The notes below the pieces were generated by a model, which had not been told where the DNA came from, searched no databases, and saw only the letters and a list, made by a program, of their open reading frames with translations. A stretch of 40,207 nucleotides of DNA from the NCBI GenBank assembly GCA_946412245.1, contig CAMKGM010000027.1:1-40207 (forward strand), given 5' to 3'. Of this stretch, positions 7,896-25,951 are shown in pieces; positions within the stretch are counted from its first letter, which is position 1; every line of letters begins with the position of its first letter. The DNA comes from an uncultured Bacteroidales bacterium. Lineage in GTDB: Bacteria > Bacteroidota > Bacteroidia > Bacteroidales > Muribaculaceae. The translations under genes were made by a program, and so were the position numbers.

Positions 7896-9983
7896 ATGAA
7901 AAATATAGTATTGTCAATCATCATGTGTGTACTGACATTGCCTGCAGTAGCACAAACCATTGTTCCCGACAGCACCTCAACAGTGCCTAACACCACAGAA
8001 ACAGACAATAGTTTGGGCCGCAAGAAAGTAGCCCTTGTGCTCAGCGGCGGCGGAGCATTCGGAGCCATTCATGTGGGCGCGCTCAAGGTGATTGAAGAGG
8101 CCGGCCTCCCCGTCGACATGGTAGTGGGTACCAGCATGGGAAGCATCGTGGGAGCCCTGTATAGTGTCGGCTATGACAGCAACGACATAGCCACCATGTT
8201 CCGCACCATGGATTGGGCCGAACTATTTCTGGACCGAGAGAACCAGCACGGGCTCACACTGAGCGAACGCGACGCGCAAAACACCTACATCTATCAACGC
8301 GACTTCTACGTGCGCGGTGGCATTGACCCCCAGCCCGGCGGTGTGATTCGCGGCACCAATGTTGAGACCACATTTGAGCACTACTTGCAGGGATATACCG
8401 ACAGCATCAACTTCTTGAAAGACCTGCCCCGACAGTTTGCCTGTATAGCCACCGATTTGGTGAATGACGAAGAGGTCGTACTCACTAACGGCTATCTGAC
8501 AAAGAGCATCCGCTCAAGTATGTCGGTGCCCGGTGTATTCACTCCCATGCACATAAACAATATGGTGCTGGTAGACGGCGGCGCGAAAAACAACTTTGCC
8601 GCCGATGTGGCCCGCAAGTTGGGTGCCGACATCGTGATTGGTGTCAAGTTTGATTTGGGGCTGGGCACTGACAAGCAATATCGCACGCTGCTCGATGTCA
8701 TGGAGCGGTCTATGGGCAGTGACGTGAGTCGTCGCGCGCGTGAAAACGAGAAGTATTGCGACTTGGTTATCAAAGTGCCCGTCAGAGGCTACACCAGCGG
8801 CAGTTTCACCGGAGGCGCACTCAATTCGCTCATGGAGCGCGGCGAGACGGCCACCCGCGAGAAACTTGACTCCATCGTCTTGCTCAAGCAGCAAGCAGGA
8901 GCCTTGCCCGATGTCAACTACACCTTGCACCTGCGCGACATGGAGCACCTCACCCCCTCCAATAATGAGCAGGGCGGGCTCGTTGACACCCGCGAGAGTA
9001 ACACCATGGTGGCATCGGTGGGCCTGCACTTCGACAGCGAAGACATTGCCGCTGCGCTACTGAATGCCCGTTACTTTGAGAGCGGCTCTGTCAACAAGGA
9101 ATTGAACCTGACCTTGCGACTGGGTTTGCGCTCCATGTTGCGGCTCAGTTTTGACATCGAGCCATGGAAATTCCGCAAGATGGGCGTGAGTTATGAGTTC
9201 TGGTACAAATACTTCGATCTCTACACCCATGGCCACCGCAGCAACAATCTGTCGCTCATCTATCAGCATGCCAATCTTAAACTGTTAAGCTTCGACGCGC
9301 TCAACTTCGACTGCGAGTTGGGTGTGGGATGGGAGCATTACCACCACTTCAAGGGATTGTGGAACGATGAGAGTACTATCATGTTCGACCCCAACGAGCA
9401 CTACTTAAACTATCATGTGCGGCTGCGCTACAACAATGAGGACAACCGCTACTTCACACGCCGCGGCGCCAGAATCGAGGCGAAATATGCCTACTATACC
9501 GACAACTTTGCACACTGGAAAGGACATAGCGGATTCAGCGCACTGACAGCAATGGCGCAGGTTACCCTGCCCATCACACAAAGCACACATTTGCGCCCGG
9601 GCATTCAGGGTCGTTTGCTCTTTGGCGACGACCTGCCCATCATGGCACAAAATGTGGCCGGAGGCAGGAGTTACGGCAAGTTCTTCCCCCAGCAGTTACC
9701 TCTGGTGGGATTGGGACACGTGGAGTTCTTCGGCTCTAAATTCGTGAGTGCGTCGCTACGATTGCAACAACGCCTCACGGGCAAGCACTACCTGATGCTC
9801 GACGGTTGTGTTGCCGAGCATAACGAGAAACTTGGCAATATCTTCGACCGCAAACCGCTGTGGGGTGCGAGCATTTCCTACTTCTACAACAGCAACATTG
9901 CCGGACCTCTGGGAGCATCGCTGGGCTGGAATAGTCACAGTCATCGGCTTAACTTATTCTTGACCGTGGGCCTTGACTTCTGA
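7896..9983 (+). CDS. Patatin-like phospholipase with C-terminal outer-membrane barrel
   Basis: The 695-residue protein has a signal peptide (cleavage near AVAQ, residue 20), a patatin domain (about 45-260) and a long C-terminal region (about 340-695) rich in alternating aromatic strands that ends in Phe, as outer-membrane barrels do. The patatin catalytic set is intact: oxyanion GGGAFG (51-56), nucleophile GTSMG (Ser80) and DGG (Asp227). A small linking domain around 300-345 may be POTRA-like. The order matches type Vd, PlpD-like proteins, in which the lipase is tethered to or moved through an Omp85-type barrel. Lipase or phospholipase activity and outer-membrane location follow from the family. 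It is transcribed alone. Confidence 0.9.
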   Translation: MKNIVLSIIMCVLTLPAVAQTIVPDSTSTVPNTTETDNSLGRKKVALVLSGGGAFGAIHVGALKVIEEAGLPVDMVVGTSMGSIVGALYSVGYDSNDIATMFRTMDWAELFLDRENQHGLTLSERDAQNTYIYQRDFYVRGGIDPQPGGVIRGTNVETTFEHYLQGYTDSINFLKDLPRQFACIATDLVNDEEVVLTNGYLTKSIRSSMSVPGVFTPMHINNMVLVDGGAKNNFAADVARKLGADIVIGVKFDLGLGTDKQYRTLLDVMERSMGSDVSRRARENEKYCDLVIKVPVRGYTSGSFTGGALNSLMERGETATREKLDSIVLLKQQAGALPDVNYTLHLRDMEHLTPSNNEQGGLVDTRESNTMVASVGLHFDSEDIAAALLNARYFESGSVNKELNLTLRLGLRSMLRLSFDIEPWKFRKMGVSYEFWYKYFDLYTHGHRSNNLSLIYQHANLKLLSFDALNFDCELGVGWEHYHHFKGLWNDESTIMFDPNEHYLNYHVRLRYNNEDNRYFTRRGARIEAKYAYYTDNFAHWKGHSGFSALTAMAQVTLPITQSTHLRPGIQGRLLFGDDLPIMAQNVAGGRSYGKFFPQQLPLVGLGHVEFFGSKFVSASLRLQQRLTGKHYLMLDGCVAEHNEKLGNIFDRKPLWGASISYFYNSNIAGPLGASLGWNSHSHRLNLFLTVGLDF

Positions 9984-10047: not shown

Positions 10048-10078
10048 TTTGCAATAACGAGAATATTTGCTAAATTTG
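10048..10078 (+). promoter_or_regulatory. Promoter of the ATPase-TOPRIM gene
   Basis: -33 TTTG (10048-10051), 19 bases, -7 TAAATTTG (10071-10078), 29 bases before the ATG at 10108. This shows the gene is transcribed on its own rather than with the patatin gene. Confidence 0.65.
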
Positions 10079-10107: not shown

Positions 10108-11688
10108 ATGGACATCAAGCTTCCCAATAAGAGCAATAGTCAACCCGCCGACGTGTTGCACGATGTGCGCCAGCTCACCCTCATCGGTGCCAACGGCTCG
10201 GGCAAAAGCCGCTTTTGCAGCAAACTCATGGAGCAGTGCGGCGACAACGTGTTTCGCATTTCGGCACTCAGAGCAATATTTCCCAGCACCAACAAGAATC
10301 CACGCAAGGGCTCAATCAGCGCCATGTTTGATACACTGAATGAAAATGCGTTGGAAGTCAAGAGCTATGCCGTGACCGAGTTTGACAAACTCTTCTATGT
10401 GATGATGAACGAGGAGTTTCGCGACATGATGAACTACAAGGCACACCTGCTCATGGGCGAGCAACTGGATTTCCCCAAGACGAAACTCGATGTCACCGTC
10501 AAGGCTTGGCAAGAGGTGTTTCCCAAGAACAAGGTGTTGCGAGAAAACGGGAAACTGCTATTCACCACCGAGGGGCAAGACGACCGATACTCGTCGCTCC
10601 GCTTGTCCGACGGCGAGAAAGCCGTGCTCTACTACATCGGCGCGGTGCAATATGCCATGCCCGAAGCGCTTATCGTCGTCGACGACCCCGAGTCGTTCAT
10701 CCATCCTTCTATTATGGTCACCTTATGGAACGAGATTGAAGGGTTGCGACCCGACTGCACGTTCATTTACAACACCCACGATGTAAACTTCGCAACTTCA
10801 CGTTCCGATAATACTTGCGTGTGGGTCAAGAGTTTCGACCCCGCCGGCATGACGTGGGACTATGAGGTCATGGACACCAGCCGGCAGTTGAGCGAGGCAC
10901 TCTACTACGACCTGTTGGGAAGCCGTCGGCCGGTACTCTTTATCGAGGGCGACGACACTCACAGCATTGATTCACGACTCTACCCGCTCATCTTCCCCAA
11001 CTGCACCGTCAAGCCGTTGGGTAGCTGCAACAAAGTGATTGAGAGCGTGCGCTCATTCAACGACCTCAAGTCGTTCCACCACATGGACAGCATGGGCATC
11101 GTGGACCGCGACCGACGCGACGATGTGGAAGTAGAGTATCTGCGCAAGAAGAAGATTCTGGTGCCTAATGTGGCCGAGATTGAGAATCTGCTGATGCTTG
11201 AGGGAGTTGTCAAGGCCGTTGCACGACAGCGACACCGCAATCCCGACGATGTATTCAACTCGGTTCGGCGCTCGGTTATCAAAATGTTTGCCGCTGAGCT
11301 CAAGCAGCAAGCGCTCATGCACGTTAGGCATCGGGTCAAGCATGAGGTTGAAGTGCGCATTGACCGCAAATTCCGCAACATCAATGCGCTCGAGGAGCAC
11401 ATGATTGACTTGGTTAATGAAATTGACCCACGGAGCACCTACGAGGACTTGTGCCGCGAGTTCCACCGCTATGTGAGCGAGAATGACTATGCGCAGATTT
11501 TGCGCGTTTATAACCAAAAAATGATTCTGGGCGACTCAAATGTAGCCGCTCTGTGCGGACTCTCCAAGAAAGATGACTACATCAAGCAGGTACTGCACAT
11601 CCTCAAGAGTGGCGGGCGCGAGGCTAATGCCATCAGAAAGGCCGTGCGCGACTGTTTCGGAATCACCGATGAGTTACCGCTGGAATAA
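10108..11688 (+). CDS. ABC-type ATPase fused to a TOPRIM/DUF4435-like domain (AriA-AriB-like)
   Basis: I see two domains in one 526-residue chain. The N-terminal ABC-type ATPase has Walker A GANGSGKS (27-34), signature LSDGEK (166-171), Walker B LIVVDDPE (188-195) and an H-loop THD (223-225). The C-terminal part reads as a TOPRIM fold of the DUF4435 kind: VLFIEGDD (Glu280), a GSCNK segment (305-309), GIVDRDR with Asp333 and Asp335, and AEIENLL (356-362). OLD-family nucleases and the PARIS system (AriA ATPase plus AriB DUF4435 effector) combine the same parts, usually in PARIS as two genes. A phage-defence role is my inference; a housekeeping DNA or RNA repair role is possible. It has its own promoter and no mobility genes beside it. 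Confidence 0.8.
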   Translation: MDIKLPNKSNSQPADVLHDVRQLTLIGANGSGKSRFCSKLMEQCGDNVFRISALRAIFPSTNKNPRKGSISAMFDTLNENALEVKSYAVTEFDKLFYVMMNEEFRDMMNYKAHLLMGEQLDFPKTKLDVTVKAWQEVFPKNKVLRENGKLLFTTEGQDDRYSSLRLSDGEKAVLYYIGAVQYAMPEALIVVDDPESFIHPSIMVTLWNEIEGLRPDCTFIYNTHDVNFATSRSDNTCVWVKSFDPAGMTWDYEVMDTSRQLSEALYYDLLGSRRPVLFIEGDDTHSIDSRLYPLIFPNCTVKPLGSCNKVIESVRSFNDLKSFHHMDSMGIVDRDRRDDVEVEYLRKKKILVPNVAEIENLLMLEGVVKAVARQRHRNPDDVFNSVRRSVIKMFAAELKQQALMHVRHRVKHEVEVRIDRKFRNINALEEHMIDLVNEIDPRSTYEDLCREFHRYVSENDYAQILRVYNQKMILGDSNVAALCGLSKKDDYIKQVLHILKSGGREANAIRKAVRDCFGITDELPLE

Positions 11689-25045: not shown

Positions 25046-25951
25046 TTACTGCGGATAGAGGATGAGCGGAATGAGCAGCATAACTGTGAAGATGAGCATA
25101 TTGCGCGCGGTGGCTCCCAGCAGAGGGTTCAGCGCCCTACCGTCGCGCGAGCGCACCTGCAACCAGGTGTGCGTGTGCAGAATGAGGTAGATGGCGGGAG
25201 CGAAGAGCGTCCAAATGGGCATGGTGAAGAACATGTGCAACCATAGCGCCGCCAGAATGGCAAAGCCGACAAAGCCATTAAACAGATAAGCAACGACTGC
25301 CGCCTGCCTGCCGAACACCACCGCCGAGGTGCGCTTGCCCGCCTCACGGTCGTCGTCAATGTCTCGAATATTGTTCACCAGCAACACATTCACTCCCATA
25401 AACCCGATGCAAATGGATGCCATGAGCACAAAGGGATGAAAAGAGCCCGTGACCACATAGTAGGTGAAATTGACCGGAATGATGCCGTAGAAAATGAATA
25501 CGGCGAGTTCGCCCAGGGTGTGGTAGCTGAGCGGATAGGGCCCTGTGCTGTAAGCGAGAGCACCAACCGCAGTCACGATTCCCACCAGCACCAATATCCA
25601 CCACTTGCCTGCCGGAGCATAGGGCAGCATGGCCAGGCCAATACCGCACGCCACGGCCAGGGTGGCATAGGTCACAATCTTGAGCGTTCGTGGCTTAATG
25701 TCGCCCTCGGTCACGCCGCGGCGTGGCCCTACGCGACCTTTCTTGTCGGCTCCGTGCTTGTAGTCGTAGTATTCGTTGGCAAAGTTCGACACAATTTGTG
25801 CCAGCAGTGCAAACACGATGCACAAGAGGGCAGGAACGAGCCTGAAACAGTGACTCCACTTGGCAAATCCCAGGGCAATCAACACCCCGCTAAGCGACAC
25901 GGGCAGAGTGCGCAATCGCATCGCCTCAAGCCATATTTTAATTTTTTTCAT
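25046..25951 (-). CDS. menA: 1,4-dihydroxy-2-naphthoate polyprenyltransferase
   Basis: MenA attaches the polyprenyl tail to DHNA in the inner membrane, giving demethylmenaquinone, the precursor of the menaquinone used in Bacteroidales respiration. The 301-residue protein is of the UbiA fold with about eight hydrophobic helices. The first Asp-rich motif is NEYYDYKHGADKKGR (Asn59, Asp63, Asp69) and the second is NNIRDIDDDREAGKRT. RVGPRRGVTEGDI after the first motif is typical of MenA rather than UbiA. It is not adjacent to other men genes here. A minus-strand -7 element TAACTTTG lies at 25975-25982. Confidence 0.93.
   Translation of the reverse strand: MKKIKIWLEAMRLRTLPVSLSGVLIALGFAKWSHCFRLVPALLCIVFALLAQIVSNFANEYYDYKHGADKKGRVGPRRGVTEGDIKPRTLKIVTYATLAVACGIGLAMLPYAPAGKWWILVLVGIVTAVGALAYSTGPYPLSYHTLGELAVFIFYGIIPVNFTYYVVTGSFHPFVLMASICIGFMGVNVLLVNNIRDIDDDREAGKRTSAVVFGRQAAVVAYLFNGFVGFAILAALWLHMFFTMPIWTLFAPAIYLILHTHTWLQVRSRDGRALNPLLGATARNMLIFTVMLLIPLILYPQ

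Follow-up and report, generated by a model that had tools for sequence, protein, structure and literature searches.

The window analyzed here is a 40,207-nucleotide stretch of DNA from an uncultured Bacteroidales bacterium of the Muribaculaceae (GenBank assembly GCA_946412245.1, contig CAMKGM010000027.1, positions 1 to 40,207). On its forward strand, at 10108–11688, lies a gene for what is, by profile and predicted fold, a member of the AriAB family: a fused AriA-AriB-type protein in which an ABC ATPase platform and a DUF4435/TOPRIM nuclease share a single chain. It belongs to a lineage that is present in most Muribaculaceae and several other Bacteroidales families and is vertically inherited. 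In the Muribaculaceae and in families f105, f60, f22 and f86 the ATP-binding residues are kept and the catalytic Glu of Walker B is lost, and the nuclease site is invariant or nearly so and under purifying selection. Being fixed, inherited vertically and altered at the catalytic base, this lineage is a distinct variant. Our preferred explanation, with a probability of about 0.55, is that in this vertically inherited fusion lacking the Walker B Glu a tethered nuclease would be held by ATP and would serve in immunity or stress-induced shutdown.

The gene and its motifs are as follows; conservation counts refer to 100 distinct sequences of the vertically inherited lineage (the core).

10108..11688, + strand: whole gene of the fused AriAB-type protein, 526 amino acids, ATG at 10108 and stop ending at 11688 (Pfam, PADLOC)
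10108..10917, + strand: AriA-like ABC ATPase domain, residues 1–270
10186..10209, + strand: Walker A GANGSGKS, residues 27–34; Lys33 in 100/100
10603..10620, + strand: ABC signature LSDGEK, residues 166–171; Ser167 and Glu170 in 100/100
10681..10692, + strand: altered end of Walker B, D192-D193-P194-E195, corresponding in the alignment to AriA D392-E393-P394-E395; catalytic Glu replaced by Asp
10774..10782, + strand: H-loop THD, residues 223–225; His224 in 97/100
10918..11688, + strand: AriB-like DUF4435/TOPRIM domain and C-terminal helices, residues 271–526
10942..10956, + strand: TOPRIM motif IEGDD, residues 279–283; Glu280 in 99/100
11104..11112, + strand: TOPRIM motif DRD, within VDRDR 332–336; Asp333 and Asp335 in 100/100
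11173..11187, + strand: AEIEN, within AEIENLL 356–362; Glu357, Glu359 and Asn360 in 100/100

The reading frame and the ATPase and TOPRIM motifs that a first-pass annotation of the window had listed are all present in the translation. That annotation had not seen that Walker B (VVDDPE, residues 190–195) reads D-D in place of D-E, so that the usual catalytic Glu is absent, nor that the gene is common to most of the family. Pfam detects DUF4435 at residues 273–500 (2.3e-28) and AAA_21 (8.6e-11), and the best of 43 PADLOC families is AriAB PDLC02982 (E = 5e-106, 353.6 bits); NCBIfam gave no match above its cut-offs. The window gene is the only DUF4435 match in the source genome at E ≤ 0.001.

Residues 271–526, predicted alone (pLDDT 87.6, pTM 0.84), match AriB first and then OLD TOPRIM domains (9.5 versus 6.2) in VIA-align, in line with the TOPRIM fold expected for residues 275–365, and this AriB-type domain carries the catalytic Glu and Asp. 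The ATPase half of the predicted structure matches the AriA-type ABC ATPase fold. The proposed resemblance to a fused AriA-AriB is thus borne out by the PADLOC profile and by the fold of both halves. The AriA/AriB ranking comes from VIA-align, a re-alignment of Foldseek candidates; in Foldseek, the TOPRIM domain had no match at E ≤ 0.001 and the top match of the full-length model was PtuA. A phmmer search of PDB sequences found neither AriA nor AriB, and AriA was found by profiles. GajA is not among the VIA-align matches listed, which counts as no evidence against it.

The distribution of the gene was followed in a set of one genome per species. In the window's genus a homologue is present in 87 of 91 genomes, mostly as a single copy and with 59–83% identity, and in the Muribaculaceae as a whole in 260 of 297 genomes, 185 of 205 good-quality genomes and 29 of 30 genera. 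Among representatives of other families, 5 of 59 have a homologue. Across the order, 36 of 392 genomes match and fall into two classes: full-length proteins with 41–50% identity in f22, f28, f60, f86, f101, f105 and one f3 genome, and sporadic copies with 26–33% identity. Muribaculaceae other than the window's own genome had 48–52% identity in the same search. Every genome is positive in three of these families (f105 9/9, f60 5/5, f22 9/9), and in the rest of the phylum 4 of 295 genomes match, with 22–33% identity. As a scale for recovery, rpoB was found by the same tool in 51 of 54 genomes (28/30 and 23/24). Nearly all extracted proteins (102 of 104) have at least 515 residues; the other two are truncated at a contig end or divided between two genes.

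Genomes without a match include all four g85 genomes (G174, G194, G214 and G230) and six listed g62 genomes (G151, G198, G217, G233, G246 and G270); these are two genera of the family that seem to lack the gene in most or all of the genomes listed. No close orthologues of the flank were found in four such genomes of the window's genus (G007, G031, G040 and G052), using the MATE neighbour as flank, nor, except for one 49% match in G282, in four g63 genomes, using an antiporter-like neighbour. The genomes tried for empty sites are assembled in fragments, and gaps in the assembly may account for some of the absences.

The AriAB tree tracks that of the species. Trees of AriAB and RpoB from the 50 genomes that carry both genes have 26 of 47 splits in common, against a maximum of 3 in 200 label shuffles; among the 29 AriAB splits with support of at least 0.95, 21 are present in the RpoB tree. 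When outside relatives are included, a core of 51 sequences forms a clade (0.999) in which 31 Muribaculaceae sequences are monophyletic (1.0), with Synechocystis as the nearest outsider (0.978). The trees were built without G105 (split gene) and Pseudoalteromonas (partial frame). The first-pass annotation had pictured a solitary defence gene of one chromosome; the data do not support this, and the genus- and family-wide presence and the RpoB-like tree speak against horizontal acquisition of such a gene at the window locus. In a first, rooted tree the core was nested among sporadic and plasmid relatives, a position that, under the assumed root, would suggest domestication of a mobile ancestor.

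Nine residues are invariant in the 100 core sequences (Lys33, Ser167, Glu170, Pro194, Asp333, Asp335, Glu357, Glu359 and Asn360), and the invariant Walker A and TOPRIM residues span at least 24 genera. Position 193, that of the Walker B catalytic Glu, is Asp in 70 of these sequences, Ser in 13, Asn in nine, Glu in seven and Ala in one. Not one of the 81 distinct Muribaculaceae sequences has Glu193: all 54 that are at least 62% identical to the window protein have Asp, and the remaining 27 comprise 13 with Ser, nine with Asn, four with Asp and one with Ala. All 12 sequences from families f105, f60, f22 and f86 have Asp. Outside the core clade, Glu is found in 28 of 28 sequences. These comprise four sporadic Bacteroidales copies, the second copy of genome G452, the two-gene Paraburkholderia pair, ten plasmid proteins, one phage protein, Pseudoalteromonas, viral contigs L198–L202, L090 and the phylum matches L204–L207 (L205 reads DEPE). 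Parabacteroides distasonis (Glu) groups with the core and so stands outside this count; also left out were L203 (96 residues matched) and L196/L197, viral-collection contigs with 49% identity and Thr at 193, whose next gene is bioA by NCBIfam, so that they are probably host chromosome. A profile of the Walker B region aligns without gaps to AriA 365–430 and places Asp193 on AriA Glu393, the residue altered in PDB entry 8v49, titled 'AriA (E393Q)'. Genome G452 (loci L120 and L126) has two copies, one of the core type (EEPE) and one that is fused and of the sporadic type (DEPE, 29% identity).

Parsimony over 68 sequences gives 10 changes at position 193, nine at 195 and 7 at 192, compared with a mean of 20.3 over all sites; Lys33, Ser167, Glu170, Pro194, Glu280, Asp333, Asp335 and Glu359 have none, His224 and Glu357 two each, and Asn360 three. 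The dN/dS ratio was 0.038–0.163 in nine pairs, four of these values resting on dS above 1, and two further pairs were saturated. By half, it was low in both halves of most pairs, the highest value being 0.252 in the ATPase half of G479/G719.

We propose that chiefly the binding of ATP, and less a cycle of hydrolysis, would close the ATPase platform and hold the oligomer and its tethered nuclease in an off state. PARIS is triggered by phage anti-restriction proteins and cuts tRNA; in its two-gene form a hydrolysis stroke is followed by effector dissociation. Gabija GajA is nucleotide-gated and is reported to respond to a fall in nucleotides. By analogy with these models, the trigger here could be the binding of a phage protein (the PARIS case) or a fall or loss of nucleotide (the GajA case). 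Unlike in two-gene PARIS, release would not proceed through a hydrolysis stroke and dissociation of the effector; the trigger would re-orient the tethered TOPRIM nuclease, and the freed nuclease would cut RNA or DNA and halt growth. Most likely it would be a resident component, and not a mobile cassette, that serves immunity or stress-induced shutdown.

Several results weigh against this reading. Two AriAB splits with strong support disagree with the RpoB tree, one within the window's genus and one among sporadic copies, and AriAB and RpoB distances are moderately correlated (0.45 across 46 core genomes and 0.63 across 50, with a Mantel p of 0.001). The first tree, which included a two-gene PARIS concatenate and very distant members, supported the core clade at only 0.295; the value of 0.999 was obtained after removing five rows on long branches (Parab2gene, Oenococcus phage, E. 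coli, Acidiphilium and Kocuria). No match was found in 37 of 297 family genomes, 20 of 205 when only good-quality genomes are counted, and among the 260 matches a few are weak and possibly other copies (for example, 2.6e-8). The seven core sequences with Glu193 (f28, f101 and f3), like P. distasonis, show that the Glu has not been lost throughout the fixed lineage. Position 193 changes less than the mean site and is therefore constrained, only less than other catalytic positions. Asp193 might still support hydrolysis; since Asp may permit slow turnover, 'hydrolysis-deficient' is a prediction and not a result. Trigger and substrate are both things we infer by analogy.

An ordinary PARIS with AriA and AriB fused would use Asp193 or Glu195 as hydrolysis base, respond to a phage anti-restriction trigger and owe its near-fixation to strong and constant phage pressure. 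We consider this possible and on balance doubtful. The profile and folds agree with it, as does an acidic residue at 193 in 77 of the 100 core sequences, but the Ser, Asn and Ala found in the others do not, and some of these also lack Glu195 (DSPG, DNPA and DSPT). Family-wide vertical inheritance moreover differs from what is seen in relatives outside the clade.

A second alternative, which we hold to be unlikely, is a domesticated gene with a cellular rather than antiviral role, for example an energy- or redox-gated nuclease once co-transcribed with menaquinone synthesis. The broad presence across the genus, the family, f105, f60 and f22 speaks for it, and so does the genomic context. In 22 of 80 loci, some of which represent the same genome twice, menA lies directly downstream of AriAB in the same orientation, starting between −111 and +115 bp relative to where the AriAB match ends: f105 5/5, f60 3/3, f28 4/4, f86 1/1 and 9 Muribaculaceae loci. 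At one further locus a single gene intervenes. Against it, menA does not adjoin AriAB in f22 (0/3), f101 (0/2), f3 (0/1), P. distasonis (0/1), the six sporadic-copy loci or any of the 14 loci of the genus; some genomes rated 98–99% complete lack a match; and operon neighbours need not have a common function. The simplest reading is an old AriAB-menA pair, since broken in some lines. The identity of menA rests on TIGR00751 above its cut-off, checked on L088 and on the window copy, which is about 14 kb from AriAB on the opposite strand:

25046..25951, − strand: menA (TIGR00751, 177.9 bits, cut-off 102.15)

A more specific version would have PARIS-type AriAB converted, in an ancestor shared by several Bacteroidales families, into a resident housekeeping switch: a TOPRIM nuclease clamped by ATP and deficient in hydrolysis that, once an operon partner of menA, senses nucleotide or respiratory state and cuts tRNA at low ATP, with phage as one trigger among others; we find this slightly less likely again.

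An OLD- or Gabija-like, nucleotide-gated nuclease of DNA rather than tRNA is improbable, given that the TOPRIM half scores higher against AriB than against OLD and that a Pfam scan of the ten neighbouring proteins, one of which had no match at all, found no GajB-like helicase. OLD is absent from the 50 VIA-align matches listed for the ATPase half, which proves nothing. A decaying relic, its ATPase dying and the gene persisting by inertia, could be imagined from the Walker B change and the absence in some genera, and is very hard to reconcile with the low dN/dS in both halves of most pairs, Walker A and TOPRIM residues invariant over at least 24 genera and nearly uniform full length.

The window gene lies between a patatin-Omp85 gene upstream and a DKNYY protein gene downstream; the former, directly upstream at 7896–9983, encodes a patatin phospholipase fused to an Omp85-type barrel. 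The first-pass annotation would have counted conservation at this locus in all strains, with no effect on phage, against a defence role. Conservation across species is largely found; a single common locus is not. When 18 window proteins were searched in 40 loci, the neighbours recurred in few: only L067 and L105 have NlpC and YjeF nearby, in altered order, and a few others have one gene in common. In the window's genus a MATE transporter is directly behind AriAB in 10 of 14 loci. AriAB there is also often near a ubiE/menG methyltransferase, another menaquinone gene (NF001244 above cut-off; L083–L085, L098 and L100–L104, with MATE behind AriAB). The suggestion that the gene has its own promoter is plausible: a pattern match that fits the Bacteroidota consensus, of the −33/−7 type, ends about 30 bp upstream of the ATG, and four such matches occur in the window against 0.48 expected:

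10048..10078, + strand: putative Bacteroidota-type promoter, TTTG-N19-TAAATTTG (pattern match)

The first-pass annotation had pictured a compact, fused version of PARIS. AriAB has been a PADLOC family since the 2023 release at the latest, and such a fused architecture is therefore not new; fused genes occur on plasmids, in a phage and in viral contigs. In a PADLOC check of 10 proteins, all eight fused relatives had PDLC02982 first, the other two being two-gene AriA and AriB. Matches were found in 53 plasmid records, 27 of them covering at least 80% of the query, and 12 of the 53, together with one of two phage records, were fetched. Plasmid relatives come from Synechocystis, Paraburkholderia, Campylobacter, Rhizobium, Psychrobacter, Agrobacterium and others; further fused relatives are those of an Oenococcus phage and of viral contigs (8 loci). 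Clear defence-like neighbours accompany 2 of the 12 fetched plasmid copies. On a conjugative plasmid of Paraburkholderia sabiae (L179:3402–7677) a fused AriAB immediately follows a two-gene AriA/AriB pair and has EAD1/GASH genes close by, making up a defence island of two PARIS-like units. The Kocuria copy is flanked by a TIR protein on one side and a DNA methylase on the other. A small, 6.4-kb mobilizable plasmid of E. coli (L188:1926–3605) has a fused AriAB of very divergent sequence, with a ToxN/AbiQ toxin gene nearby; there are at least eight similar E. coli records. The P. distasonis record (L106:9001–10557), labelled as a plasmid, carries a core-type AriAB amid uvrA, nhaA and tldD-type genes and looks chromosomal; from its grouping with f101, we infer that f101 is the Tannerellaceae.

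Software using the AriAB profile would score PARIS in most genomes of a common gut family, though the gene behaves as a common vertical gene with an altered ATPase, which has consequences for counting defence repertoires. The lineage also offers a natural experiment on whether binding or hydrolysis is the ATPase step that controls an AriB-type nuclease, and a possible example of a defence module turned resident.

Among known systems, the fused AriAB of PARIS (PDLC02982) is alike in domain order, similar length, DUF4435 effector and AriA/AriB folds. It differs in being sporadic and borne by mobile elements, a typical and not strictly defining trait, whereas the window lineage is vertically fixed, has the AriA Glu393 equivalent replaced (a trait of the solved AriA, outside the profile criterion) and has menA as neighbour in several families. 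Two-gene PARIS (PDB 8ux9, 8v45–8v49) has separate AriA and AriB, with an AriA chain of 464 residues; the window protein is a single chain without the Walker B Glu, its ATPase part is about 270 residues, and its nuclease should be unable simply to dissociate. The OLD family nucleases (6njv, 6nk8 and 6p74) are a weaker fold match than AriB, and the window protein matches the DUF4435 profile. PtuA of Retron/Septu systems works with the HNH nuclease PtuB, whereas the window protein carries a fused DUF4435. Gabija GajA is likewise a one-chain ATPase-TOPRIM protein. No GajB-like partner was found among the ten neighbours of the window gene, and GajA is not among the 25 PADLOC matches listed; its nucleotide gating is a model for ATP-held inhibition and the closest working analogy. 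With its nuclease domain intact and the Walker B Glu replaced, the window protein may work differently from the PARIS defence system that gave it its name.
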